Shown in pieces: positions 5,430 through 56,323 of a stretch of DNA of 64,000 nucleotides. The DNA lies in the NCBI RefSeq assembly GCF_007856155.1, contig NZ_CP042266.1, forward strand, positions 2,480,001-2,544,000, in the 5' to 3' direction. The notes under the pieces were generated by a model. The model saw nothing but the letters and a program-made list of their open reading frames with translations. It did not search any database and was not told where the DNA came from. This stretch comes from Streptomyces qinzhouensis (lineage in GTDB: Bacteria; Actinomycetota; Actinomycetes; Streptomycetales; Streptomycetaceae). Within the stretch, counting starts at the first letter, position 1, and the number at the start of each line of letters is the position of its first letter. A program made the translations under genes and the position numbers.

Positions 5430-6347
5430 ATGAGCATCGCACCACCCGCCGGGCCCGGGGATCCGCCCCCGGGCCCGGACACCGCGCTGGACGATCTCCT
5501 CGGTCTGCTCGACCTCGAACCGATCGAACGGGACATCTTCCGCGGCGAGTCCCGCCCGACGATCGTCCCCCGGGTCTTCGGCGGCCAGGTCGCCGCCCAG
5601 GCCCTGGTGGCGGCGGGCCGTACCGTCCCCGCCGAGCGCGGAGCGCACTCCCTGCACGCGTACTTCCTGCGCATGGGGGACCCCGGCGCGCCCATCGTCT
5701 ACACCGTCGACCGGATCCGCGACGGCATGTCCTTCACCACCCGGCGGGTGGTCGCCGTCCAGCACGGCCGGCCGATTTTCCACCTCTCGGCCTCGTTCCA
5801 GACGTACGAGGAGGGGCTGGACCACCAGGCGCCGATGCCGTCCGCGCCGGACCCCGACTCGCTGCCGACAGCGGCCGAGGCGCTGCCCTCGTACGCCCGG
5901 CACTTCACCGATCCGGCCACCGCCGAGCGGCTGCTGGAGGCCCGGGCGGCGGTCGATCTGCGGTACGCCAACCCGCCGCCGTACGCCACCGTCGGCGAGG
6001 TCCGCGAACCCCGTTCGCAGGTCTGGTTCCGGACCGCGGGCAAACTCGACGACGATCCGCTGCTCCATGTCTGTCTGGCGACGTACGTCTCCGATATGAC
6101 CCTGCTGGACTCGGTGCTGCTGGCCCACGGGCGCGGCGGCTGGGCGGTCGGGGATGTGATGGGGGCGTCCCTGGACCACGCGATGTGGTTCCACCGGCCG
6201 TTCCGGGCCGACGAGTGGCTGCTGTACGACCAGGAGTCACCGTCGGCGGCCGGCGGCCGGGGCCTCGGCCAGGCCCGGATCTGGACCCGGGACGGACGGC
6301 TCGCGATCACGGTCATCCAGGAGGGCGTCATCCGGGCGCTGGGCTGA
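5430..6347 (+). CDS. tesB: Acyl-CoA thioesterase II (TesB-like)
   Basis: The protein is 305 residues, matching the double-hotdog TesB family that hydrolyses acyl-CoA to free acid and CoA. DLEPIERDIFRGES and RVFGGQVAAQALVAAGRTV open the first hotdog. HSLHAYFLRMGDP and DGMSFTTRRVVAVQHGRPIF follow, and DHAMWFHRPFRADEWLLYD lies in the second hotdog. It follows the acyl-CoA dehydrogenase closely on the same strand. The physiological substrate is not evident. Confidence 0.92.
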   Translation: MSIAPPAGPGDPPPGPDTALDDLLGLLDLEPIERDIFRGESRPTIVPRVFGGQVAAQALVAAGRTVPAERGAHSLHAYFLRMGDPGAPIVYTVDRIRDGMSFTTRRVVAVQHGRPIFHLSASFQTYEEGLDHQAPMPSAPDPDSLPTAAEALPSYARHFTDPATAERLLEARAAVDLRYANPPPYATVGEVREPRSQVWFRTAGKLDDDPLLHVCLATYVSDMTLLDSVLLAHGRGGWAVGDVMGASLDHAMWFHRPFRADEWLLYDQESPSAAGGRGLGQARIWTRDGRLAITVIQEGVIRALG

Positions 6348-9241: not shown

Positions 9242-10894
9242 ATGCCGCAGACACCCGTCCCGCCACGGCAGGCGCCCGCGCTGAGGAGCGCGGCCGATCC
9301 GGCGTCCGCGGCCTGGCAGGCCAATGAGGCGGGCCACCGGGAGCTGGCCGACGCGCTGCGCACCGCGCTCGCCGCGGCCCGGCTCGGCGGCGGCGAGAAG
9401 GCCCGCGCCCGGCACACCGCCCGCGGCAAGCTGCTGCCCCGCGACCGTGTCGACACCCTGCTCGACCCCGGCTCCCCCTTCCTGGAGCTGGCCCCCCTCG
9501 CGGCCCACGGGATGTACGAGGGCGCGGCCCCGGCCGCCGGGGTCGTCGCGGGTATCGGCCGGGTCGCCGGGCGCGAGACGGTGATCGTCGCCAATGACGC
9601 GACCGTCAAGGGCGGGACGTACTACCCCATGACGGTCAAGAAGCATCTGCGGGCCCAGGAGGTGGCCCTGGAGAACCGGCTGCCGTGCGTCTATCTGGTG
9701 GACTCCGGCGGCGCGTTCCTGCCGATGCAGGACGAGGTCTTCCCCGACCGGGAGCACTTCGGCCGGATCTTCTACAACCAGGCCCGGATGTCCGGTGCGG
9801 GCATCCCGCAGATCGCCGCCGTCCTCGGTTCCTGCACGGCGGGCGGGGCGTATGTCCCCGCGATGAGCGACGAGGCCGTGATCGTACGGAATCAGGGGAC
9901 GATCTTCCTGGGCGGTCCGCCCCTGGTGAAGGCCGCGACCGGCGAGGTCGTCACCGCCGAGGAGCTGGGCGGCGGCGAGGTGCACTCGCGGATCTCCGGG
10001 GTCACCGACCATCTCGCCGAGGACGACGCGCACGCGCTGCGCATCGTCCGGACCATCATGGAGACGCTCCCGGCCCGCGCCCCGCTGCCCTGGGCGGTCG
10101 CGCCCGTCGAGGAGCCCGCCGCCGACCCCGCGGGGCTCTACGGGGCGGTGCCGGTCGACCCGCGGACGCCTTACGACGTCCGGGAGGTGATCGCCCGGAT
10201 CACCGACGGCTCCCGGTTCGCCGAATTCAAGTCCGAGTTCGGACAGACGCTGGTCACCGGCTTCGCCCGGATTCACGGCCATCCGGTCGGCATCGTGGCC
10301 AACAACGGCATCCTGTTCGCGGAGTCCGCCCAGAAGGGCGCGCACTTCATCGAGCTGTGCGACCAGCGCGGCATCCCGCTGCTCTTCTTCCAGAACATCT
10401 CCGGCTTCATGGTCGGCAAGGACTACGAGCACGGCGGGATCGCCAAACACGGCGCCAAGATGGTGACCGCCGTGGCGTGTACGAGAGTCCCCAAGCTGAC
10501 GGTCGTCATCGGCGGTTCGTACGGCGCGGGGAACTACTCGATGTGCGGCCGCGCCTATTCTCCCCGCTTCCTGTGGATGTGGCCCAACGCCAAGATCTCC
10601 GTCATGGGCGGCGAGCAGGCCGCCTCCGTACTGGCGACGGTCCGGCGCGACCAGGCGGCGGCCCGCGGCGAGGAGTGGCCGGCCGCCGACGAGGAGGCGT
10701 TCAAGGCCCCCATCCGCGCCCGTTACGAGGAGCAGGGCAGCGCGTACTACGCCACGGCCCGGCTCTGGGACGACGGGATCATCGACCCGCTGGAGACCCG
10801 CCGGGTGCTGGGACTCGCCCTGACCGCCTGCGCGAACGCGCCGCTGCCCGCCAAGGACCCGTCGGCGCCGGGCTTCGGCGTCTTCCGGATGTGA
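9242..10894 (+). CDS. Acyl-CoA carboxylase carboxyltransferase subunit (methylcrotonyl-CoA carboxylase beta type)
   Basis: This 550-residue subunit transfers carboxyl from biotin to an acyl-CoA. The crotonase-fold halves are clear: [20 protein letters not shown] and [19 protein letters not shown] in the first half; [20 protein letters not shown] and [18 protein letters not shown] in the second. The [16 protein letters not shown] segment is typical of methylcrotonyl-CoA rather than propionyl-CoA carboxylases. The next gene, a biotin carboxylase, starts 8 bp after its stop, and HMG-CoA lyase follows, so leucine degradation is the likely pathway. Start at the ATG preceded by AAGGGGG. Confidence 0.93.
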
Positions 10895-44948: not shown

Positions 44949-45152
44949 CTACAGCTCGGAGGTCCGGGCGAGCGTCACCAGTCCGGCGAACGCGCTGGTG
45001 GAGATCATCAGTGCGGGACCGTCCGGATTTTTACTGTCCCGGACCGGGACTATGTCAGTCGCGGATGCGTACTCGGGGGCCCACTCGATGCACTGCCCAC
45101 CCTGGCCGCTGTAAGAAGACTTGACCCAAGTCAGGTTCGTCGCAGTCGTCAC
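44949..45152 (-). CDS. DUF397 domain small protein
   Basis: The protein is 67 residues and has the DUF397 signature: NLTWVKSSYSGQGGQCIEWA, VPVRDSKNPDGPALMISTSA and FAGLVTLAR. Such proteins pair with an XRE-DUF5753 regulator in most Streptomyces and are thought to modulate it or to form an antagonist pair. The GTG start overlaps the stop of the regulator as GTGA, so the two are translated together. Confidence 0.92.
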   Translation of the reverse strand: MTTATNLTWVKSSYSGQGGQCIEWAPEYASATDIVPVRDSKNPDGPALMISTSAFAGLVTLARTSEL

Positions 45153-45979
45153 GTGGTGCCCTTTCGGATCTGATCAATCATGTCCACTGAAGCATCCTGG
45201 GACAGTGCCCCTACGTGCAACTGATGGTAGGCGGCAAGCATCGGGACAACTGCGGCACTCTCACGTTCAAAGTGCCCATGCTGGCTGGACTGCGCGTACG
45301 CCATAAGCCCTCTGTCCGGAAGCGTCAGGATCGTGATTGGCAGGGTGTAGGGACGTCGTTCCGCCATCGAAAACGGGGCCACGTGAAGAGCGGTGTGTGG
45401 GTTGTCTGCGAACTCGAGCAACCGAGCAAGCTGCACTCCCATGACTGAACGGCCGCCAACCGGTCGTAATAGGCAGCTCTCGTCGAGGATCACGAAGACC
45501 AACGGCGGGGGTGTCCGGACCAGAGCAGCTTGCCGACTCTCCACTAGTGCGACCCGCTCGTGAGCCTGCTCGGGCGTAATGGCCCCGCGCTTGACCTCCT
45601 GATCTTCGATTGCAGCTGCGTACTGCGGTGTCTGAAGCAGCCCCGGTATCACTCCGACTTCGTATAGACGGATCTCCGCCGCGTGAGCCTCACGGGCCAC
45701 GTACTCCGGGAACCCTTCAAGCAGGGCGGTGTACCGCGCTGCCTGAATCTGTTGCTCCAGGCGTGCCCCGGTCCCAAACACACGGTCAAGTTTTCTCGCA
45801 AATTGTTGAGTTGCTGCTCTGCGACCAGTTTCAACAGCGGAGATATGCGACCCAGTGCACCCAACTCGTTCCGCTAGCTCCTCTTGAGTCCAGCCCCGCT
45901 CATCCCGCAATGTGCGTACGAGCAGGCCAAACTTCTCGCGCGGGGATCGTTCAGGGTGCAGTTGCTTGCGGTTCGACAT
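45149..45979 (-). CDS. XRE-family regulator with DUF5753 (TTA-containing)
   Basis: The protein is 276 residues. The XRE helix-turn-helix at about residues 17-70 reads FGLLVRTLRDERGWTQEELA, ERVGCTGSHISAVETGRRAA. The DUF5753 domain begins with YEVGVIPGLLQTPQYAAA and includes FVILDESCLLRPVGG. Leu171 is encoded by TTA (plus strand 45467-45469), preceded by another rare codon, CTA. This makes expression potentially dependent on the bldA tRNA. The region is less GC-rich than its surroundings. It forms an operon with the DUF397 gene. Confidence 0.92.
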   Translation of the reverse strand: MSNRKQLHPERSPREKFGLLVRTLRDERGWTQEELAERVGCTGSHISAVETGRRAATQQFARKLDRVFGTGARLEQQIQAARYTALLEGFPEYVAREAHAAEIRLYEVGVIPGLLQTPQYAAAIEDQEVKRGAITPEQAHERVALVESRQAALVRTPPPLVFVILDESCLLRPVGGRSVMGVQLARLLEFADNPHTALHVAPFSMAERRPYTLPITILTLPDRGLMAYAQSSQHGHFERESAAVVPMLAAYHQLHVGALSQDASVDMIDQIRKGTT

Positions 45980-46306: not shown

Positions 46307-46530
46307 CCTGGACGTTGAAACGCGTGCCGACATTGCCCGTTCTCGCGCATATGACCTGTGAGTCGGGGACCCCGCCCTGTCGGGCCGAGCCCTCGGCCGG
46401 GGCCGGTCAACTGACGGCCGGTGAGGTCGCTTCGTGGGCGCGAGAGCATGTACTGACCACCGGGCATACCGATTTCGAGTTGCTCGTGTCCAGCTATGTG
46501 CGGTGGGAGAGCAGCGGGGACGTCTCGTGA
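46303..46530 (+). CDS. Small hypothetical protein
   Basis: This protein is 75 residues starting at GTG within a GTGA overlap. It contains MTCESGTPPCRAEPSAGAGQ, with two cysteines four residues plus apart, then LTAGEVASWAREHVLTTGHT and FELLVSSYVRWE. It resembles small proteins found beside XRE/DUF397 pairs but I cannot name it. It is coupled to both neighbours by 4-bp overlaps. Confidence 0.65.
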   Translation: MTWTLKRVPTLPVLAHMTCESGTPPCRAEPSAGAGQLTAGEVASWAREHVLTTGHTDFELLVSSYVRWESSGDVS

Positions 46531-46964
46531 ACGCTCCTGCCACCCCCGGCTACGGTGCGGCTGTGCTTCTCTCCGGGCCGCACCTCCGCTGGTTTCCGCG
46601 TGCGGTGTTCAGCAGTCCGTACCCGAGACGTGTGTTCCGGTGGCTCCGGGGGCAGGCGCTGAGCCTTGCCGACCGGCTCGACCCGGACCCGGCACAGGTG
46701 ACGTGGGCATCCGTACTGCACCCCGAGCCGGCCACCCGGTACAGCGGTATCGCGGACGTGCCGTGGGCGCTGCGCGCGTGGGCGGCGAACGGTGCGAACC
46801 GGAGAGACGAACGCCGACTTGCGGCAGGGATCCCCGTCTTCATGCTCCGGGCGGACCGCACCGGGTCGTATGCGTTCATCGCATGGCCCGTCGGACCCGG
46901 CACTACCCCACCGGACGATGCGCTGCGGTGGCTCTCGGCAGCCGGATACGAGTGGTCACAGTGA
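46527..46964 (+). CDS. Hypothetical protein
   Basis: This 145-residue protein starts at GTG in a GTGA overlap. It contains LLSGPHLRWFPRAVFSSPYP, VPWALRAWAANGANRRDERR and YAFIAWPVGPGTTPPDDALR. No domain or catalytic motif is recognised. It is coupled to the Nudix gene by another GTGA overlap, so it belongs to the same transcript. Confidence 0.6.
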   Translation: MNAPATPGYGAAVLLSGPHLRWFPRAVFSSPYPRRVFRWLRGQALSLADRLDPDPAQVTWASVLHPEPATRYSGIADVPWALRAWAANGANRRDERRLAAGIPVFMLRADRTGSYAFIAWPVGPGTTPPDDALRWLSAAGYEWSQ

Positions 46965-47386
46965 CGCGGGAGAGCGACCACACCGTAGCCGTCGCCGTGG
47001 CTGTCATCGTCCGGCCCGTGGACGGGCGGATCGTGCTGGTGCGCCGCCGTGTCCCGGAAAGCGAGCTCGTGTGGCAGTTTCCCGGCGGGAAGGTGGAGCC
47101 GGGAGAGGCCCCGGAGGCCGCGGCGGTTCGGGAGACCCGGGAGGAAATCGGGCTGACCGTGGTCGATCGGGCGCGGATCGGGGCCCGTATCCATCCGCTG
47201 ACCGGCCGCCGGATCGTCTACATCGCCTGCGACGTCGTGTCCGGCGTCGCCCAAGTCACCGCCCCTCGGGAGATCGCCTACACGGCCTGGATCCCGCCCT
47301 CCCGTCTCGACACCTACGCCCCCGGCGTCTATGAGCCGGTCCGGCAGTACCTCAGCATCACCGCTCCCGGAAGGAAGTCACCATGA
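46961..47386 (+). CDS. Nudix hydrolase
   Basis: This 141-residue protein has a complete Nudix box GKVEPGEAPEAAAVRETREE followed by IGL, and an upstream strand VAVIVRPVDGRIVLVRRRVP. It resembles MutT-type (d)NTP pyrophosphohydrolases, cleaving a nucleoside diphosphate linked to another group. It starts at GTG in a GTGA overlap and ends overlapping the methyltransferase gene by ATGA. Substrate unknown. Confidence 0.9.
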   Translation: MTRESDHTVAVAVAVIVRPVDGRIVLVRRRVPESELVWQFPGGKVEPGEAPEAAAVRETREEIGLTVVDRARIGARIHPLTGRRIVYIACDVVSGVAQVTAPREIAYTAWIPPSRLDTYAPGVYEPVRQYLSITAPGRKSP

Positions 47387-48528
47387 CCGCATGGAATTGG
47401 GAAACCAGGGCTGGAGCCCTCGCGGACCGGGTGACCGACCCGGATTCGCGGTGGCTCGCTCCCTTGGCGGTCGTGCCCCGTCACCGACTGGTCCCCCGCT
47501 GGTGGGAGCGGGACCACGACGGGCGCTGGGCGCTGCGGATCGGTTCGGACGACCCTGTCGCCTGGATGGACGCCGCCTACGGGGACCAGTCCTTGGTCAC
47601 CAGGGTGGGCACCCTCCACGCGGACCACGCCGAGCCCGACGACCACCCCGAGGGGCGCCCCACATCATCGGCGACCATGCCGAGCCTGGTCGTCTCGATG
47701 CTGCGGTACGCCCGGCTCGGAGCCGGTCTGGATGTTCTCGACGTCGGCACCGGGGCGGGCGGTCTCGCCGCCTATGCCGCCACCCGGTTCGGGGCACGGC
47801 ACGTCACCAGTCTTGACGTAGACCCCTATCTCACCGGCGCGGCGGCGGAACGGCTCTCCGGGCTCGGGCTGAAGCCCGGGTTCCGCACCCAGGACGCGAC
47901 GACGGAAATCACCGGGACGTACGACCGGATCATCGCCACGGTCGGCATGCCACCGGGTCCAGGACTCCGGCCCCTGCTCGGCGCACTCCACCCGGGCGGA
48001 CGCCTTGTCACCGCGCTGGATCGCATGGGCGTGATCATCACCGGGTGGAAACGTGCAGACGGTGATGTGGTGGGAACCGTCGAACGGACGCCCGCCGGGT
48101 TCATGCCGGCCCGCTCGGGAGCCGACTACGGACCAACGCCCGACTTCGCCGTAGCGGAGGCTGCTGACGGACAGTCCGTCAGCACCGGCCGGTATCCGGT
48201 GCTCGACATCCCGAACACCTGGGAGTTGCGGTCGATGCTGGAACTCGCCGCCCCCGGTGTGGAGGCCACCTTCCACGAGCAGGGGCGGACCCGCACTGCC
48301 TGTCTGATCCACCCGGACGGTTCATGGGCCCGGGCATCCGCCGAGTGGACCGACCCGCCCACCGTGCAGCAGAGCGGCCCCCGAAGGCTGTGGGACGTCC
48401 TCGAACACATCCGGACCCGGCTGAACATCGAGGGCAGCCTGCCGTTGCTCGGAGCACGCGTCCGGATCACACCGGATGGCGTCTGCCACTTCTCCCGAGG
48501 CCAGTGGAGAGCAGCCATCGGCGCATGA
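47383..48528 (+). CDS. PCMT/PIMT-like O-methyltransferase with C-terminal extension
   Basis: This 381-residue protein belongs to the protein-L-isoaspartate methyltransferase superfamily. The SAM-binding motif I is GLDVLDVGTGAGGLAAYAAT, with HVTSLDVDPYL (motif post-I) and YDRIIATVGMPPGPGLRPLL (motif II). About 110 C-terminal residues beyond the core (LEHIRTRLNIEGSLPLLGAR and similar) recall the tailed PCMTs of actinobacterial RiPP clusters. No precursor peptide was seen next to it. It is the fifth gene of the coupled series, with a terminator-like hairpin 30 bp downstream. Protein repair is an alternative role. Confidence 0.82.
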   Translation: MTAWNWETRAGALADRVTDPDSRWLAPLAVVPRHRLVPRWWERDHDGRWALRIGSDDPVAWMDAAYGDQSLVTRVGTLHADHAEPDDHPEGRPTSSATMPSLVVSMLRYARLGAGLDVLDVGTGAGGLAAYAATRFGARHVTSLDVDPYLTGAAAERLSGLGLKPGFRTQDATTEITGTYDRIIATVGMPPGPGLRPLLGALHPGGRLVTALDRMGVIITGWKRADGDVVGTVERTPAGFMPARSGADYGPTPDFAVAEAADGQSVSTGRYPVLDIPNTWELRSMLELAAPGVEATFHEQGRTRTACLIHPDGSWARASAEWTDPPTVQQSGPRRLWDVLEHIRTRLNIEGSLPLLGARVRITPDGVCHFSRGQWRAAIGA

Positions 48529-49264: not shown

Positions 49265-50629
49265 TCAGTCGTTCTGCGGCGGAACCCCGGGGCGGAACTC
49301 CACCAGCGGGCCGTAGGAGTAGCGCTTGCCGTTGACGCTGTCGCCGGTGGCGGTGTTGCCGGTGACCACAACGTCCGTCACCTTCGAGTCAAACCCGCCT
49401 TCGCTCACCGAGTTGATCCGCACCGCGTGACGCGTGACGCCCGCCGCGCTACGCGCCAGCGTCACCGTGTTGCCGGTGATCTCCACCCCGTTCAGGGGGT
49501 TCGCGGCGACGGGTACCGGCGGCTGAACCGGTGTCTTCGCCGTCATCGGGCTGACGTAGACGCCGCCGCACCCCCTGTTGACCGTGTTCCCCCGGATGAC
49601 CAGGGCGGTGGTGTTCATGGGGCCGATGGCGTCCCACTTGGCGTCGTCCACCACATTGCCCTCGATCAGCACGCGGGCGTGCACCTGACCGGCCTTCTGG
49701 CCGCCGGTGTGCGAGCCGATCAGCTTGGCCCAGGAGGGCTGGGAACCGGAGGCGGCCACGTGGTTGCGCAGGACCCGCACGTCCACGGTCGGCGTGCCGT
49801 CGGCCGCACCCGCCCAGGTGTTGCTCGTGCTCGGCAGGTCGAGCTGGACGGCCTCGCCCTGCCAGAGCCCCGCGGTCGGGTTCTCGACCCAGCCCTTGAA
49901 GAAGGAGTCCTGGACCACGGCACGCCGTACGGCGTTGAGTTCGACCGCGTGCCACCACTTGACGTTGTAGACCGTGACGCCCTCGATCTCGATGTCCTGG
50001 GTGTGGATGAAGGTGAGGGCGTTCATCGGCGGAGCCTTGTCGGCGCGGGCACGCGCGGCCCCCGTGTCCTCCCACACGTACGCGGAGATGGGGTCCCACT
50101 CGCCGCCCTTGATCTTGATGTTGCCGGGTGCGGCGTACCCCTTGGTGGTCGCTGCGGGCACGTGATTGATCAGCATTGTGGCGGCCTTGGCGCCGCTGAC
50201 CTCGGGCGCCGTGAACATCCCCTGCCCGTCGACCTGGTACACGGGCGTGGGCGAGTGGTCGTTCGTCTTGTCCAGCTTGTACTCCCGGCCGGCCGTCCCG
50301 AACTTGGCGACGAAGCGGGCGCCCGTCGCGTCCAGGAGGGTATTGCCCCCGATGACGAGGGTGTTGAGGAGCGTGTAGGTCGGTACGCCCGCGTACCCGG
50401 CCTTCACGATGATCCGCCCCGCGCTGTCGACACCGTCCGGACCCGCGATCCCGGCCGCCGCGTCGTCCAGCGCCTTGCGCAGCCTGCGTACGTGAGCCGC
50501 CTCGCCCGGCACGGACGGATTCACGCCCGCCGCGGTGGCCTGCGCGGCCGTGTGCACACCCCCGGATGCGGAGGCCACCCCGACCACCGCTCCACCGCGG
50601 AGCACACTCCGCCGACTGATCCCTGTCAT
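49265..50629 (-). CDS. Tat-exported right-handed beta-helix protein
   Basis: The protein is 454 residues from the ATG at 50629. It begins TGISRRSVLRGGAVVGVASA, a twin-arginine signal peptide, so a folded protein is exported. The body repeats parallel beta-helix coils: IEIEGVTVYNVKWWHAVELN, VRVLRNHVAASGSQPSWAK, ARVLIEGNVVDDAKWDAIG and VEITGNTVTLARSAAGVTRH. This is the fold of pectate lyases, rhamnogalacturonases and other polysaccharide enzymes, but I cannot see a diagnostic catalytic set. It lies on the same strand as the lasso genes, 190 bp downstream of the methyltransferase. A link to the peptide is unproven. Confidence 0.78.
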   Translation of the reverse strand: MTGISRRSVLRGGAVVGVASASGGVHTAAQATAAGVNPSVPGEAAHVRRLRKALDDAAAGIAGPDGVDSAGRIIVKAGYAGVPTYTLLNTLVIGGNTLLDATGARFVAKFGTAGREYKLDKTNDHSPTPVYQVDGQGMFTAPEVSGAKAATMLINHVPAATTKGYAAPGNIKIKGGEWDPISAYVWEDTGAARARADKAPPMNALTFIHTQDIEIEGVTVYNVKWWHAVELNAVRRAVVQDSFFKGWVENPTAGLWQGEAVQLDLPSTSNTWAGAADGTPTVDVRVLRNHVAASGSQPSWAKLIGSHTGGQKAGQVHARVLIEGNVVDDAKWDAIGPMNTTALVIRGNTVNRGCGGVYVSPMTAKTPVQPPVPVAANPLNGVEITGNTVTLARSAAGVTRHAVRINSVSEGGFDSKVTDVVVTGNTATGDSVNGKRYSYGPLVEFRPGVPPQND

Positions 50630-50819
50630 GGTCCCCGCCCCGTCTCGTCCACCGGCCGCCCAATGTGAACAGTCTTGCGAATACAGTACGGTTCGGCGGC
50701 GCGAGCGGCCGCCGCTGTGCGACATCCGGTGAGTTCCCATGAAGTCCTTGGAGAACATCCAAACGACCCCAGGACCGGGCCCCGGCAGCGCCCGTCGGGG
50801 CCGGTGGGGCGGGTGCCGG

Positions 50820-51845
50820 CTACGGGGTCAGCCGGAGGTTCCACCCGTCGGCGCCTTGGCCGTCGTCATAGCGAACCAAGGTGGTCCGGTGGGTTTCGGG
50901 TGCGGGTCGCCCGGCGTCTTCCCATGCGCTGAGCCAGCCGCGCAGGGCGGTGAGGGAGGGGGAGTCGACGGTGTCGGCGAGGACGGTGGCGTCCTGCTGG
51001 ATGACGGCGGCCGTGGTCGGGGTGGAGTGGCCGAGCGCCCACAGGTCCGGGTTGAGTCCGGCCATGGTCAGCTGTGGGCCGGCGGTGGCCGCCGCCCAGG
51101 TCCGCCAGGACGGCCAGTCGAGCTTGGGGCCGTCGTAGGGCTCGGTGTGCGCGTTATTCAGCAGCCGGTCCAGAGTGGTGCGGGCGCCGGTGTGGAGGTC
51201 GTCGTCGCCCTCGCGCCAGGCAACGGAGATCCAGGACGGTGCGGGAACACGGTTCTCCCAGTCGATCCAGCGGCCGGGCAGGTCGAGATCGGTCTTCGGA
51301 GAGGTGGTGGCCTCGATGTACCCGCCGTTGAACACGGCCTCCACGGACGGCTGGCAGCCACTCACCCGGATCTTGGCGACGAGGGTCATGTTGGGCACGG
51401 CCGCGATGGGCAGCGGGGCGACGATCAGGCCTCCGTCGGCGGTCTGGTCGACCCACGCCCGAGGCAGCAGCGGCGGGGTGCACCAGGCCACGATCCGGTC
51501 GTACGGGGCCCGGTCGGCGAACCCCGCGGTGCCGTCGGCGGTGTGGCAGCGGATGTTGCCGACGCCGCGCTGGTGGTGGATGAGGCCGGCCCACCGCACC
51601 AGGTAGTCGTCGATGTCGAGACTGGTCACCGTGCCCTGCGGGCCGACAAGGTGAGCAAGGAGGGCGCCGGAGTAGCCGGAGCCGGTGCCGAACTCGGCGA
51701 CGTTCATATCCGGGCGGACATCCAGGGTGGTGAGTTCGCGGTGGATCACCTTGGGGTTGGAGCGGTGCGGGGTGGCACCGCGGCCTTCGTGGTGGGTGTA
51801 GTGGCGTTCGGGAACGGTCTCGGCGGCCAGGGCGACAGGGGGCAC
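50820..51845 (-). CDS. Lasso-cluster PIMT-like methyltransferase (aspartimide-forming type)
   Basis: The protein is 341 residues from the GTG at 51845, which has AAGGAG 5 bp upstream; the longer open frame reads through the B2 gene. The SAM motif is VAEFGTGSGYSGALLAHL at about residues 49-66, then GTVTSLDIDDYLV and YDRIVAWCTPPLLPRAW. A C-terminal domain of about 130 residues follows the methyltransferase core. PIMT homologues in lasso clusters methylate an Asp in the macrolactam ring, which then closes to an aspartimide (cellulonodin-2 and lihuanodin). The precursor here has Asp6-Thr7 in its ring, so the same role is inferred. A C-terminal carboxyl methyltransferase role is less likely. Confidence 0.82.
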   Translation of the reverse strand: MPPVALAAETVPERHYTHHEGRGATPHRSNPKVIHRELTTLDVRPDMNVAEFGTGSGYSGALLAHLVGPQGTVTSLDIDDYLVRWAGLIHHQRGVGNIRCHTADGTAGFADRAPYDRIVAWCTPPLLPRAWVDQTADGGLIVAPLPIAAVPNMTLVAKIRVSGCQPSVEAVFNGGYIEATTSPKTDLDLPGRWIDWENRVPAPSWISVAWREGDDDLHTGARTTLDRLLNNAHTEPYDGPKLDWPSWRTWAAATAGPQLTMAGLNPDLWALGHSTPTTAAVIQQDATVLADTVDSPSLTALRGWLSAWEDAGRPAPETHRTTLVRYDDGQGADGWNLRLTP

Positions 51846-51925
51846 GTTCACTCCTTGGAGGGACAGGCGGGTACATGTGTGCAACTGCTCCGGGCAGGTG
51901 AAGGACACGTCCGGGGGAATGTTGG

Positions 51926-52348
51926 TCAGATCCTCAGAGCGGCGTAGTGGTGCCAGCCGCCCTCGGTGTACTCGCCAACCGGTCCGGCGCCGGGCAGTTC
52001 GGTCCAGGCGTGGTACTCGGTCGGTGGCGGCAGGAACCGGGCACCGAGGCACCAGGTCAGCTCCTGCCGCAGAAAGGCCGCCGCGAGGGCGGAACCGAGG
52101 CTCGTCTCGGCGCACGCGACACGTCCCGGCCACCACCGCCCCGCGTGCCGTACCGCGGCGACCAGAGCGTCGGCCCGTGCGGGGGTGAGCGGCCGGTGTC
52201 CGAGCCGCCTGGCCCAGCGGACGGCGCGGACGGTGTGCCGGAAGGGCAGCCGCAGCAGCACCAGGGCGAGCGCGATCCCGGCGAGGGCCGCGACGCGTTC
52301 GGGGAAGGTGCCGGTGCGAGTGGTGGAGTACGCCTCCGTGCTCGTCAC
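51926..52348 (-). CDS. Lasso peptide B2 leader peptidase (transglutaminase-like)
   Basis: The protein is 140 residues starting at GTG in a GTGA overlap with the B1 gene. It fits the lasso maturation protease: a hydrophobic helix, VAALAGIALALVLLRLPF, then the catalytic Cys79 in RVACAETSLGSALAAAFLRQ and His113 in EYHAWTELPG. The third (Asp) residue of the usual triad is not obvious after HAWTELPGAG, where a Glu is present. It removes the leader once B1 has bound it. Placement between B1 and the methyltransferase fits known lasso operons. Confidence 0.88.
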   Translation of the reverse strand: MTSTEAYSTTRTGTFPERVAALAGIALALVLLRLPFRHTVRAVRWARRLGHRPLTPARADALVAAVRHAGRWWPGRVACAETSLGSALAAAFLRQELTWCLGARFLPPPTEYHAWTELPGAGPVGEYTEGGWHHYAALRI

Positions 52349-52641
52349 CGCCACCACCCCCACCAGCAACGGCGGTGCGGGGCCGGTGCTTTCCGGGCAA
52401 GTCCGGCGGAAGTAAGGGCGTTGGAGACGGTCCGGATGTCGTCCCTGGCGTGGTCGGTGGTCAGCCGGTAGCGGGAGGCGTACTCGACGGCTGCCTGGGC
52501 GGGAGTGTTGCCCGCCAGCAGGAGCATGACCGCCGCTGCGGCGGTCGGGGTCAGGTGGGTCCACCGGCCAGTGAGCTCGTCCAGGATCGCCCCGCCCTCG
52601 TCGGTGAGGACCGGGTGGGTGCCGTCACGCAGTTGCCACAC
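52345..52641 (-). CDS. Lasso peptide B1 protein (PqqD-like RiPP recognition element)
   Basis: This 98-residue PqqD-type RRE has the winged-helix pattern GGAILDELTGRWTHLTPTAA, AVMLLLAGNTPAQAAVEYA and DHARDDIRTVSNALTSAGLA. It binds the precursor leader at its Tyr-x-x-Pro motif and delivers it to B2 and the cyclase. It begins at a GTG 17 bp inside the end of the cyclase gene and overlaps B2 by 4 bp. Confidence 0.9.
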   Translation of the reverse strand: MWQLRDGTHPVLTDEGGAILDELTGRWTHLTPTAAAAVMLLLAGNTPAQAAVEYASRYRLTTDHARDDIRTVSNALTSAGLARKAPAPHRRCWWGWWR

Positions 52642-54463
52642 GGGAGTCCACCTTTCGCCAGACGGGCGCGGGTGCCGTGTCGAGCCGGCGGAGCCAGATT
52701 TCGGCGCTGGTCACCAGGTGCAGGGCTCCTTGGGCGGTCGGCTGTCCGGCCGCGGCGCGCTTCAGCATCGCGTTGACGGGGGCTTCGGCGGCCAGTCCGA
52801 GAGCGGCGAGCCGGGAGGCGGGACCGAGCAGGTCCCGCAACTGGCCGGCGTGACGGCGCAGGCCGTCGTAGGCGAGAGCGTTGAACCCGCCCTTCGTGAC
52901 GCGGGCGAGGACGAAGCCCGGCAGGACTCCGGTGCCGGTGAACGCCGAGGCCAGCAGAGGCTTGTACCTCCCCGGTGCCCCGCGCTGTTCGGCCGGGACG
53001 GCGAGGCAGGCCCGGACGACCTCATTGTCCAGGTAGGGGGCGGCCAGCTCGATCCCGTACCCGGCCAGGGCGATCTCGCGCCATCCACCGGTGTTCGCCC
53101 CGACCCGTACGAGGTCCTGGCGGTCCACCCAGGGGGCCAGCAGTGTCGGCGGGTCCGCCAGTTCATCGGCTGCCCGGATGAGGGCGTCGGCAAGCCGACT
53201 GCGGGCCTCCGGGCTCATCCAGTCGGCCGTGGCCAGCAGCGGCGTCCAGCTCACGGGCCGCTGAGCCTGCGGCACCCAGGCCCGCACGGGACCGCGCAGG
53301 TCGGCAGCAATCTGCCGCCAGGCACCGGGGAGGGCAGTACGGCCGGCCGGGCGGGCCCGGCGAAGGGCCGTGAAGGCGGAGGTGTGCCGCAGCCGACCAT
53401 GTCCGAGCGCGTGCCGCCAGGCGTCGCGGCGCCGCCGCGTCCGCAGCAGATCCGCCAGATAGGACGACGGCGCGGACAGCAGAGCGTCCCCGGCCGCCCC
53501 CGTCAGATGGACACCGGGCACGGTGTGCCGGGCCGCGACCGCGTCCAGCACCGCCCGTTTGATCGCCGCGGTGACCGTGTAGGCGTTCGGTGCATCGGTG
53601 ACCGGCAGAGCGGCGAGGTCGTCCAGGCCCTGGTAGTACACGGTGTCCGGATTCCCGGACACCACCTGGTGGCGCAGGCCCTGGACGGTGGCCGCGGTAC
53701 GGGCCGCGTAGGTGAGGTCGTCGTCCCGCAGCCTGGGGTCGGCGAAGGTCACGGCGGTCACCGGTCCGCTGCGGGCGGCGAGGCAGGCCAGGGTGGTGGA
53801 GTCCAGACCCGCCAGGTCCGCGCTGACCGGCCGGTCGTCGATCCTGGCTGCCACCGCCTCGAAGAGTGCGGCCCGCACGACCGGACCGGCCTGGTGAAGG
53901 TCCACCGGCTCGTAGACGGCCGGTTCATAGGGCACCGTACCGGCCTCCTCGGGGCCGATCAGCAGCAGATGGCCCGGCGGGACGCGGCGCACAGTGCGGA
54001 ACAGGCTCCGCTCGCCGAGGACATCGGGTTGCCCGAAAGCCAGATGGGCGGCGAGCCCGACCGGGTCGACCGGTGCCCCGTCGAGTGAGGCGAGCGCACT
54101 GGCCGAGGTGGCCCACCAGGTCCCGGCCGCGTCCGTGCGCCAGTACACCGGGTGCTGACCGGTGAGGTCGCCGATCACCGCAAGCACCGGGCCGCTGCGT
54201 GCAATGGTCAGATAGGAGCCGGGCCAGCGGGTCAGCGCCCGCCATTTCCCGGCCCGCACCAGGGCCGGCGCGGTCGCCAGCTCGCGATCGTCGGCCCCGC
54301 ACTCGCCGATGACAGCCAGCACCGCCCGACCCTCACCAGCCGTCCTGATCCGGGCCGAGGGCCAGCCACAAGTCCATGCAGCGTCCAGGCCCGGCACCGC
54401 CCGCCCCCCGGCGGGCAGCCGGTCACAGGCGCTGTCGCCGTACCACCCCGCACTCCACCTCAT
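52625..54463 (-). CDS. Lasso peptide macrolactam synthetase (asparagine synthase-like)
   Basis: The protein is 612 residues, starting MRWSAGWYGD after AAAGGGG. It has an N-terminal glutaminase-like domain without the Cys2 nucleophile and a C-terminal asparagine-synthase domain. It would adenylate the ring Asp of the precursor and join it to Gly1. The ATP pyrophosphatase loop reads SADLAGLDSTTLACLAARSG with DLAGLDS at residues 216-222, one residue shorter than the textbook SGGxDS. Later stretches GVHLTGAAGDALLSAPSSYL and GIELAAPYLDNEVVRACLAV match lasso cyclases. The precursor gene lies just upstream. Confidence 0.9.
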   Translation of the reverse strand: MRWSAGWYGDSACDRLPAGGRAVPGLDAAWTCGWPSARIRTAGEGRAVLAVIGECGADDRELATAPALVRAGKWRALTRWPGSYLTIARSGPVLAVIGDLTGQHPVYWRTDAAGTWWATSASALASLDGAPVDPVGLAAHLAFGQPDVLGERSLFRTVRRVPPGHLLLIGPEEAGTVPYEPAVYEPVDLHQAGPVVRAALFEAVAARIDDRPVSADLAGLDSTTLACLAARSGPVTAVTFADPRLRDDDLTYAARTAATVQGLRHQVVSGNPDTVYYQGLDDLAALPVTDAPNAYTVTAAIKRAVLDAVAARHTVPGVHLTGAAGDALLSAPSSYLADLLRTRRRRDAWRHALGHGRLRHTSAFTALRRARPAGRTALPGAWRQIAADLRGPVRAWVPQAQRPVSWTPLLATADWMSPEARSRLADALIRAADELADPPTLLAPWVDRQDLVRVGANTGGWREIALAGYGIELAAPYLDNEVVRACLAVPAEQRGAPGRYKPLLASAFTGTGVLPGFVLARVTKGGFNALAYDGLRRHAGQLRDLLGPASRLAALGLAAEAPVNAMLKRAAAGQPTAQGALHLVTSAEIWLRRLDTAPAPVWRKVDSRVATA

Positions 54464-54631
54464 CTGTGCCCCTTTCCGTGCACGCACTTGCGTGGTTTCG
54501 TAGAAACGCGAAGGCGCCGGGCCGCCCGCCCCGTGTCCCAAGCACGGGAGGCGGGCAGACCCGGCGCCCTGGTGGCGCCGGAGCCGGTCCATGGCTCAAG
54601 GTTTCCTTCCCGGCCCCGGCGGATCAGAAGG

Positions 54632-54757
54632 TCAGGCGTTCTTGTACTCGGTGTCGTCCGCAGTGTCGAAGGTCTCGGTGCCCAGCGTCACCTCGACGAC
54701 AGCGCCCGCGTCCAGCACGACGGGCGCCTCGTAGACCGCAGTGAGGGTGTCTTCCAT
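54632..54757 (-). CDS. Lasso peptide precursor
   Basis: This 41-residue gene has AAGGAG 6 bp before its ATG. The leader (residues 1-25) contains YEAPVVLDAG, the Tyr-x-x-Pro-x-x-Leu recognition motif, and ends Thr24-Leu25, giving the conserved Thr at position -2. The predicted core is GTETFDTADDTEYKNA (residues 26-41). Gly1 can be joined to Asp9 in a nine-residue ring, leaving a seven-residue tail in which Tyr13 and Lys14 are candidate steric plugs. Asp6-Thr7 inside the ring is the candidate site for aspartimide formation by the cluster's PIMT. The core is strongly acidic, unlike most described lasso peptides. Cyclase, B1, B2 and methyltransferase genes follow on the same strand. Confidence 0.9.
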   Translation of the reverse strand: MEDTLTAVYEAPVVLDAGAVVEVTLGTETFDTADDTEYKNA

Positions 54758-54916
54758 AGCGTTCTCCTTCACTCGCCGCCCCGTGCGCATCCTGATGAGC
54801 GCACAGCCGGGCGGGATGTTCCAGTCCGGCTGTCACTGGCGTTCACGCTGCCGGGCTGTGACCGACAGTCAACTGGCCTACACGCACCGCGAGTAGAGTC
54901 CGGGCCGGGCCAGGCC

Positions 54917-54931
54917 GTATATCGGGTATAC
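54917..54931. promoter_or_regulatory. Small inverted repeat before the XRE/TPR regulator
   Basis: GTATATCGGGTATAC has GTATA/TATAC arms around a 5-bp centre and lies 15 bp before the regulator start, within the 189-bp region divergent from the lasso precursor. It may be an operator or a -10 region. Confidence 0.35.
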
Positions 54932-54946
54932 GAGGGCGAGGACCCC

Positions 54947-56323
54947 ATGACCCAGCGCATGCCGAACCACCAGCTCAGCGAACTGATCGAGGAATCCGGG
55001 CTGCCGTACGACGGCATCGCCCGCGCCGTGAGAGCGGTCGCGACAGAAAGCGGCCAGCACCTGGGGACCAACAAATCGGCTGTCCACCACTGGGTGGCGG
55101 GCGTCGTGCCGTCCGGTTCGACGCCGCAGTACCTGGCCGAAGCACTCTCCCGCCGCCTCGGCCGGCGCATCACCCGAGAGGACCTCGGCCTGCCCTCCCC
55201 GGGCAGCGGTGAAGATGGCAGCATCGGACTGACACTCGACTTCGACCCCGTCGAAATCCTGGCCGCCATCGGGAAGGCTGACGTGAACCGCCGTAGATTC
55301 CTCTCCGCCTCCGCCTACTCCATGGCCGCCGCCGCCCTGCCGCTGGAGACCGTCCGGGAAACCGCCGCCCGCGCCCGGGCCGCCGCGAGCGGGGCCATGG
55401 CCGGACACGCCGATGTCGCAGCCGTACGGGACATGGTCCGCTTCTTCATGGACATGGACGAACGCCACGGCGGGCAGCACGGACGCTCAGCCTTCGTCCA
55501 GTACCTCGTCACCGACGTACTCGACCTGTGCCGGTCCCGCTTCAGCAGTGAACAGGCCCGCGCCGAGGCCCTGTCCGTCGCCTCAGCAGGCGCCCACCTG
55601 GCCGGGTGGAAGGCATACGACAGCGGCGAACAAGGACTCGCACAGCGCTACTACCTGCAATCACTGGCCCTCGCCCGCGAATCCGGTATCCCCGGCCAGG
55701 ACGGCTTCGTCATGCGCACCATGTCCCAACAGGGCATGAAACTCCACCGGGCCGAACACTGCCTCGCCCTCGCCGAAACCGGCTGGGCACGCGCCCGGGG
55801 CCGGGTCGACGGCCAGACCGAAGCCCTGTTCGCCATCACGCACGCCCACGCGCTCGCCAAGACCGGACAGACCAATCGAGCCCTGGCCGGCGCCAAGCAG
55901 GCCCACGCCTCACTCACGGCCGGGGCCGACGACCAAGTGCCCTTCTGGGCCCTGGTCTGGGGGCCACCGGCCGCCACCGTCCACTCCCGAACCGCGAAGG
56001 TCTTCGAAACCCTCGGCGACCGCCCCAATGCCGCCCGCCAGTACGCCACCGCCGCCGCCAGCCGCCCCGGCGCCACCTACGCGCGGATCATCGCCCTCGA
56101 CCTCGTCGCCGAGGCCGAACAGCAGGCCAAACAGGGCAGCATCGAGCAGGCATGCGCCACCTGGACCCGAGCCATCAACACCATGGACGGCGTGCGGTCC
56201 GCTCGTACCCGCAAGGCCATCCGCTCCCTCCGCGGCGAACTGAACATCTACCGCGCCCGGGGTCTGCGATGCGCGACCGAACTCGACGAGCACGCACGGG
56301 CCTTCCTCGCCAACCAGCGCTGA
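54947..56323 (+). CDS. XRE-like/TPR regulator divergent from the lasso operon
   Basis: This 458-residue protein has an N-terminal helix-turn-helix region (LSELIEESGLPYDGIARAVR, NKSAVHHWVAGVVPSGSTPQ, YLAEALSRRLGRRITREDLG). A Tat-like segment NRRRFLSASAYSMAAAALP sits at about residue 110, followed by a helical TPR-like domain (EQGLAQRYYLQSLALARESG, TNRALAGAKQAHASLTAGAD, FETLGDRPNAARQYATAAAS). It shares the layout of the regulator at 37.2-38.7 kb. Its position opposite the precursor gene makes it the likely pathway regulator; this is inferred. Confidence 0.84.
   Translation: MTQRMPNHQLSELIEESGLPYDGIARAVRAVATESGQHLGTNKSAVHHWVAGVVPSGSTPQYLAEALSRRLGRRITREDLGLPSPGSGEDGSIGLTLDFDPVEILAAIGKADVNRRRFLSASAYSMAAAALPLETVRETAARARAAASGAMAGHADVAAVRDMVRFFMDMDERHGGQHGRSAFVQYLVTDVLDLCRSRFSSEQARAEALSVASAGAHLAGWKAYDSGEQGLAQRYYLQSLALARESGIPGQDGFVMRTMSQQGMKLHRAEHCLALAETGWARARGRVDGQTEALFAITHAHALAKTGQTNRALAGAKQAHASLTAGADDQVPFWALVWGPPAATVHSRTAKVFETLGDRPNAARQYATAAASRPGATYARIIALDLVAEAEQQAKQGSIEQACATWTRAINTMDGVRSARTRKAIRSLRGELNIYRARGLRCATELDEHARAFLANQR

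Follow-up and report, generated by a model that had tools for sequence, protein, structure and literature searches.

Which peptide does the lasso gene cluster at positions 50820-54757 of this window (the whole 64,000-nucleotide stretch of the Streptomyces qinzhouensis genome that was analysed) produce, and what does the methyltransferase encoded at its end do? The locus is very probably an operon that makes a group 1 lassimiditide, with a predicted ring closed at Asp9 and a predicted aspartimide at Asp6. Lassimiditides are aspartimidylated lasso peptides; the available part of PMC13001092 gives only two as characterised, cellulonodin-2 (Thermobifida cellulosilytica) and lihuanodin (Lihuaxuella thermophila), both of group 1. 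The cluster has five genes on the minus strand, in the order precursor (A), cyclase (C), B1, B2 and methyltransferase (M):

54632-54757, minus strand: lasso precursor A, 41 aa (translation; leader model NF033521; identical precursor in S. jumonjinensis; 55 protein matches)
52625-54463, minus strand: lasso cyclase C, 612 aa, of the albusnodin/ikarugamycin-type macrolactam cyclase subfamily (PF00733, NF033561)
52345-52641, minus strand: B1, PqqD-like leader recognition protein, 98 aa, GTG start (PF05402, NF033530; position)
51926-52348, minus strand: B2, transglutaminase-like leader peptidase, 140 aa, GTG start (PF13471, NF033537)
50820-51845, minus strand: PIMT-like O-methyltransferase M, 341 aa, GTG start, with a C-terminal extension (PF01135; WxxxGxP; AlphaFold2 model)

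All five frames are open. Translations and family models confirm the gene order given in the first-pass annotation, and also its overlaps between C and B1 (17 bp) and between B1 and B2 (4 bp); gaps of 168 bp and 80 bp separate A from C and B2 from M. The leader matches NF033521 at 23.0 bits (cut-off 19). The cyclase scores 349.5 bits with NF033561 (cut-off 300) and 95.3 bits with PF00733, while B2 is above the cut-off of both NF033537 (53.4 bits, cut-off 33) and PF13471 (42 bits). The genes by which a lasso peptide biosynthetic gene cluster (BGC) is recognised are present: a leader-bearing precursor, an asparagine-synthetase-like cyclase, and an adjacent RRE protein B1 and B2 peptidase. B1 scores under the cut-offs of its PqqD-like models and stands where expected; in relatives it occupies the same slot between C and B2. 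The cluster is more than a chance arrangement, as the identical gene order is found again in other genomes.

The leader (residues 1-25, 54683-54757) contains the Tyr-x-x-Pro-x-x-Leu motif and Thr at -2, and the core is GTETFDTADDTEYKNA (54635-54682). The core has Asp6 (54665-54667), Thr7 (54662-54664) and Asp9 (54656-54658); these features had all been read correctly in the earlier annotation. Positions 6-9 are D-T-A-D, which fits the group 1 pattern D-(T/S)-A-D; DTAD at these positions is the class signature in both characterised lassimiditides (PMC13001092, available part). D10-T11 forms a second D-T pair. The precursor had been thought too short for ordinary gene calling; this does not hold, since 29 of its 55 protein matches are already named 'lasso RiPP family leader peptide-containing protein' (15 others are named 'hypothetical protein' and 11 are unnamed). 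No solved relative of the precursor was found among PDB sequences at E 10.

M matches Pfam PCMT (PF01135) at 84.2 bits (cut-off 20.3). Its C-terminal domain carries WEDAGRP at residue 308, which fits WxxxGxP, described in the same part of PMC13001092 as a motif of lassimiditide methyltransferases; such an in-cluster PIMT homologue is one of the marks of group 1. The motif occurs in 19 of 23 methyltransferases checked. PIMT structures are the best Foldseek matches of the AlphaFold2 model of M (predicted local distance difference test score, pLDDT, 87.8). The top match, the long enzyme 1dl5, gives a poor fit when all of it is superposed (root-mean-square deviation, rmsd, 8.8); some short PIMT structures superpose well on the catalytic domain (4l7v, rmsd 1.5).

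The site on which M would act is indicated by a comparison of related clusters with and without M, which is, at the level of sequence, a natural control. The M-positive set comprised 42 loci, the window among them, that have M and in which a precursor was recognised; loci with M and no recognised precursor (including L113) were left out, as were L075, L081 and L085 (partial cyclase seen). For the M-free set, 20 loci were fetched (L206-L225) in which M was not found at E 1e-3; L212 has two cores. L216, L220 and L224 stop within 0.9 kb of the cyclase, so that M is not judgeable there; the remaining 17 loci, together with L073, give 19 cores. Precursors were chosen by a motif search and visual inspection, a procedure biased towards lasso-like cores that makes no requirement on residues 6-7.

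D6-[T/S]7 is present in 42/42 M-positive loci versus none of the 19 M-free cores (0/22 if the three doubtful rows are kept). Counted by distinct core, the figures are 30/30 and 0/16 (Fisher P 1e-12; the rows are related and not independent). Asp9 is found in all 42 M-positive loci and in all 22 M-free cores. Positions 6-7 of these 22 cores are NN in nine and ND in five, with GH, DK, DD, GT, QS, GC, GS and GN once each. The M-free clusters, which have related cyclases, share with the window the leader type, Asp9 and, in 8 of 19 cores (e.g. GSASANNADDTEYWQ in L207), DDT[E/Q]Y; they differ in lacking D6-[T/S]7 and, within the region fetched, M. Three changes of the M label are required on a tree built from 61 cyclases, all forced by well-supported branches; after removal of L216, L220 and L224 there are still three, two of them forced. 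The link between D6-[T/S]7 and M therefore does not rest on a single split.

The assignment to PIMT-type aspartimide lasso peptides, with predicted ring closure at Asp9 and a predicted aspartimide site at Asp6-Thr7, is well supported, because DTAD matches the published signature (PMC13001092, available part) and conservation of D6-[T/S]7 tracks the methyltransferase. The expected pathway, in which every chemical step, the threading and the timing are taken from characterised relatives, would run as follows. B1 would bind the YxxPxxL leader, and B2 would cut after Leu25; C would activate Asp9 and link it to Gly1 around the threaded tail. M would then methylate Asp6 of the folded lasso, and collapse of the ester would give an Asp6-Thr7 aspartimide. 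Thr7 would direct its hydrolysis towards Asp and so keep the ring from growing.

It is unlikely that M instead acts elsewhere in the lasso, at D10 or the C-terminus, or that the aspartimide opens to isoaspartate (isoAsp) as in lanthipeptides and graspetides. D10 is also followed by Thr, and the lanthipeptide and graspetide PIMTs described in the available part of PMC13001092 favour isoAsp upon hydrolysis. However, D10-T11 lies within the DDT[E/Q]Y of those 8 of 19 M-free cores, and position 10 is variable in precursors of the M type (N in P0010, S in P0048, E in P0023), unlike the invariant D6-[T/S]7. Group 2 lassimiditides, in which the conserved modified Asp is predicted to be in the loop, do not fit either: the D-[T/S] pair that tracks M is at core positions 6-7, in the ring, and D10-T11 is common to M-free cores.

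Several observations weigh against assigning the locus to a group 1 lassimiditide with its site at Asp6. The exact WxxxGxP motif is missing in four of the 23 methyltransferases (those of L042, L048 and L050, and the second copy in L040). Two M-free cores, both in L212, keep Asp6, with Lys or Asp as the next residue; Asp6 by itself is thus not confined to M-positive clusters. In L073, an M copy lies about 2.5 kb past the B2 match of a lasso cluster whose core is without D6-T7; this locus was counted as M-free because its host, DH12, also holds a full M-positive cluster (L074). The three truncated loci also reduce the M-free set. B1 falls under both curated cut-offs (NF033530, 53.3 bits, E 2e-14, cut-off 70; PF05402, 23.0 bits, cut-off 23.4), and the ten flanking open reading frames (ORFs) tested included none named as a transporter or isopeptidase. 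Finally, several related loci have broken cyclases or retain M as the sole remnant, which indicates that the lasso pathway is often dispensable; L034, L041, L044, L045, L047, L051, L057 and L059-L061 hold either fragments of M or M with no intact cyclase. These remnants would suit a silent or decaying locus whose genes make no product, which is very improbable here given the five open frames and a precursor whose identity in S. jumonjinensis, where M is 89% and C 93% identical, suggests purifying selection.

The cluster kind is already known, and the window cluster is a further member of a small, recently described class: the available part of PMC13001092 tells of 58 further such clusters from Cao et al. 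2023, and that of PMC10787088 of 67 BGCs. As described in the former, cellulonodin-2 and lihuanodin have in common with the window DTAD at positions 6-9, the ring-closing Asp9 and a PIMT homologue (TceM, LihM) with WxxxGxP. The window differs in its host and core; its subgroup shares FDTxDDT[E/Q]Y and, in the majority of the loci seen, a divergent regulator. The locus in S. jumonjinensis NRRL 5741 (L062) shows no difference of substance: it has the same 41-residue precursor, a 94% identical regulator and the same palindrome. The product had been proposed as possibly new. The identical precursor in S. jumonjinensis shows that it is not unique to this genome, and the precursor search also returned an identical core in P0006, where the leader differs by one change. 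No description of the core strings was found in the literature searched (the five string matches were unrelated by title and abstract); mining tables and supplements, where the core may be listed, were outside that search.

M matches at E 1e-20 were found in 122 of 392 same-genus genomes (own included), most of them partial; near full-length M with at least 52% identity gave 15 matches in 14 of these genomes, again with the own genome included. A scan of named genomes found 119 relatives, of which 79 loci were kept. M relatives with 47-67% identity also occur at L089, L090, L092-L096, L098, L078 and L079, where no C or B2 match was present in the fetched stretch; the hosts are Actinoplanes kin, Actinoalloteichus caeruleus, Saccharothrix and S. 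barkulensis. These enzymes may serve another peptide class.

The 497-aa gene at 49265-50758 and a second PIMT-like gene (47383-48528), both beyond M, were not taken into the cluster. The former has no tblastn match at 1e-10 in related loci. Matches to the latter, to the NUDIX gene and to the gene at 45149-45979 are scattered and have no fixed place beside lasso genes. The second PIMT-like methyltransferase, on the plus strand, aligns nearly full length to the graspetide-type model TIGR04188 (195 bits, cut-off 380) and overlaps the end of the NUDIX gene (46496-47386, plus strand).

How might production of the peptide be controlled? A regulator gene starts 189 bp from the precursor and runs in the opposite direction:

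54947-56323, plus strand: divergent regulator, type I, 458 aa (homologues in the corresponding divergent position in relatives; AlphaFold2 model)
54917-54931, minus strand: operator-like palindrome GTATACCCGATATAC, 15 nt upstream of the start codon of the regulator gene
54866-54873, minus strand: -35-like element GTTGACTG, pointing to the precursor (alignment, position; putative role)

Pfam-A gave no family for the regulator at E 0.5. Its AlphaFold2 model (pLDDT 84.2) has an N-terminal helical region resembling a helix-turn-helix, which is read from model helices and position only, and an array like tetratricopeptide repeats (TPR). The structural matches are TPR proteins; Rap and NprR, which like PlcR are RRNPP receptors, are among the best, and Pex5, LGN and others score alike. 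The regulator may be a member of the RRNPP family, and a peptide-sensing role is possible. The literature searched on lasso peptides with RRNPP, tetratricopeptide or XRE in Streptomyces, including the available parts of PMC12224297 and PMC8068269, does not describe this regulator.

The regulator was looked for by tblastn in 27 loci that have M and are of the same kind as the window locus: 26 belong to its cyclase clade, and the other is L077. In 13 of them, the window included, a type I homologue takes the divergent place; the other 12 homologues are 60-94% identical to that of the window, and the copies in L039 and L077 seem to be broken. A regulator of another kind (type II, 26-30% identity) stands there in eight loci, and further kinds do so in two (L040, L043). 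In four (L033, L069, L088, L091) no regulator was found at that place; the homologue present in L091 lies at the opposite end. The family is large, as the own genome holds 28 matches at E 0.001, the next best being 47% identical. Type I cannot be regarded as lasso-specific, since relatives of similar identity adjoin other gene sets: radical SAM genes (L199, L205), a pair made up of an asparagine-synthetase-like gene and an ABC transporter (L198) and an asparagine-synthetase-like gene (L200).

The palindrome accompanies the regulator and not the lasso genes. GTATACNNNRTATAC stands directly before the regulator in 13/13 type I lasso loci and in 0/8 type II loci; loci of both types have GTT[G/C]ACT at the -35-like element. 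The palindrome is found once in the own 8.15-Mb genome; with at most one mismatch allowed, 0.03 occurrences are expected in the window. Its bare number was rejected as evidence: the pattern occurs in 33 of 384 same-genus genomes and the backward control in 29 (counts read from a table), and the own genome also holds the control. Since the two are about equally frequent, only the place of the palindrome is telling. The asymmetric form GTATACNNGATATAC has 17 sites in the 384 genomes, of which 16 immediately precede the gene for a type I regulator (the gap is 11-15 nt at 15 of them; the sixteenth is in G356); at the remaining site, in G163, no type I regulator is present in the 5.8 kb fetched. 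The symmetric form occurs in 19 places, none beside any of 27 surveyed type I regulators. Among these 27, the palindrome is exact in 16, nearly matched in six (G150, G035, G057, G290, G265, G344), degenerate in G056 and G206 (where the regulator is frame-shifted) and absent in G363; G165 and G090 are not judgeable.

This distribution is a good footprint of a candidate self-regulating operator. The regulator probably controls itself through the GTATAC palindrome, a putative operator; judging by position only, it likely controls the lasso operon through the same site. As type I relatives adjoin other gene sets, the regulator and palindrome look like a portable regulator-operator module.

Other loci carry pieces of this arrangement. 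Short ORFs ending in EKPQESSDQGRFED are divergent from type I regulators in L198 (6410-6532) and L270 (5901-6029), and in L198 the asparagine-synthetase-like gene and ABC transporter then follow; these ORFs perhaps belong to another lasso family without a methyltransferase. In L256 (G056), a fossil-like lasso precursor ORF (5839-5961) with Ile for Asp6 lies next to a type I regulator, and the palindrome there is degraded; no C, B1, B2 or M match was found at E 1e-5 in the fetched 12 kb. L202 has a type II regulator (9263-10540) that shares 87% identity with the lasso-linked query; the lasso genes gave no match in the fetched 18 kb. Intergenic regions of type II loci (e.g. L038, L064) contain a conserved block around CTGGCCTACAGCTGGC..ACATT.TGGCAGCT before the type II regulator, likely the operator of that regulator.

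The first-pass annotation had noted neither the regulator and its palindrome nor the M-free sister cores. The M-free clusters differ at ring positions 6-7 yet share D9 and, in part, DDT[E/Q]Y, and so provide a ready-made test of the contribution of the imide. The linked regulator and candidate operator offer a genetic handle on the timing of peptide production. The purpose of the aspartimide is treated as open in the available part of PMC10787088. A speculative and rather unlikely proposal is that the regulator is the receptor for the neighbouring lasso peptide, perhaps reading the aspartimide versus the Asp state, with the lassimiditide as signal and the palindrome as switch. If this were true, the purpose of the aspartimide would be regulatory.

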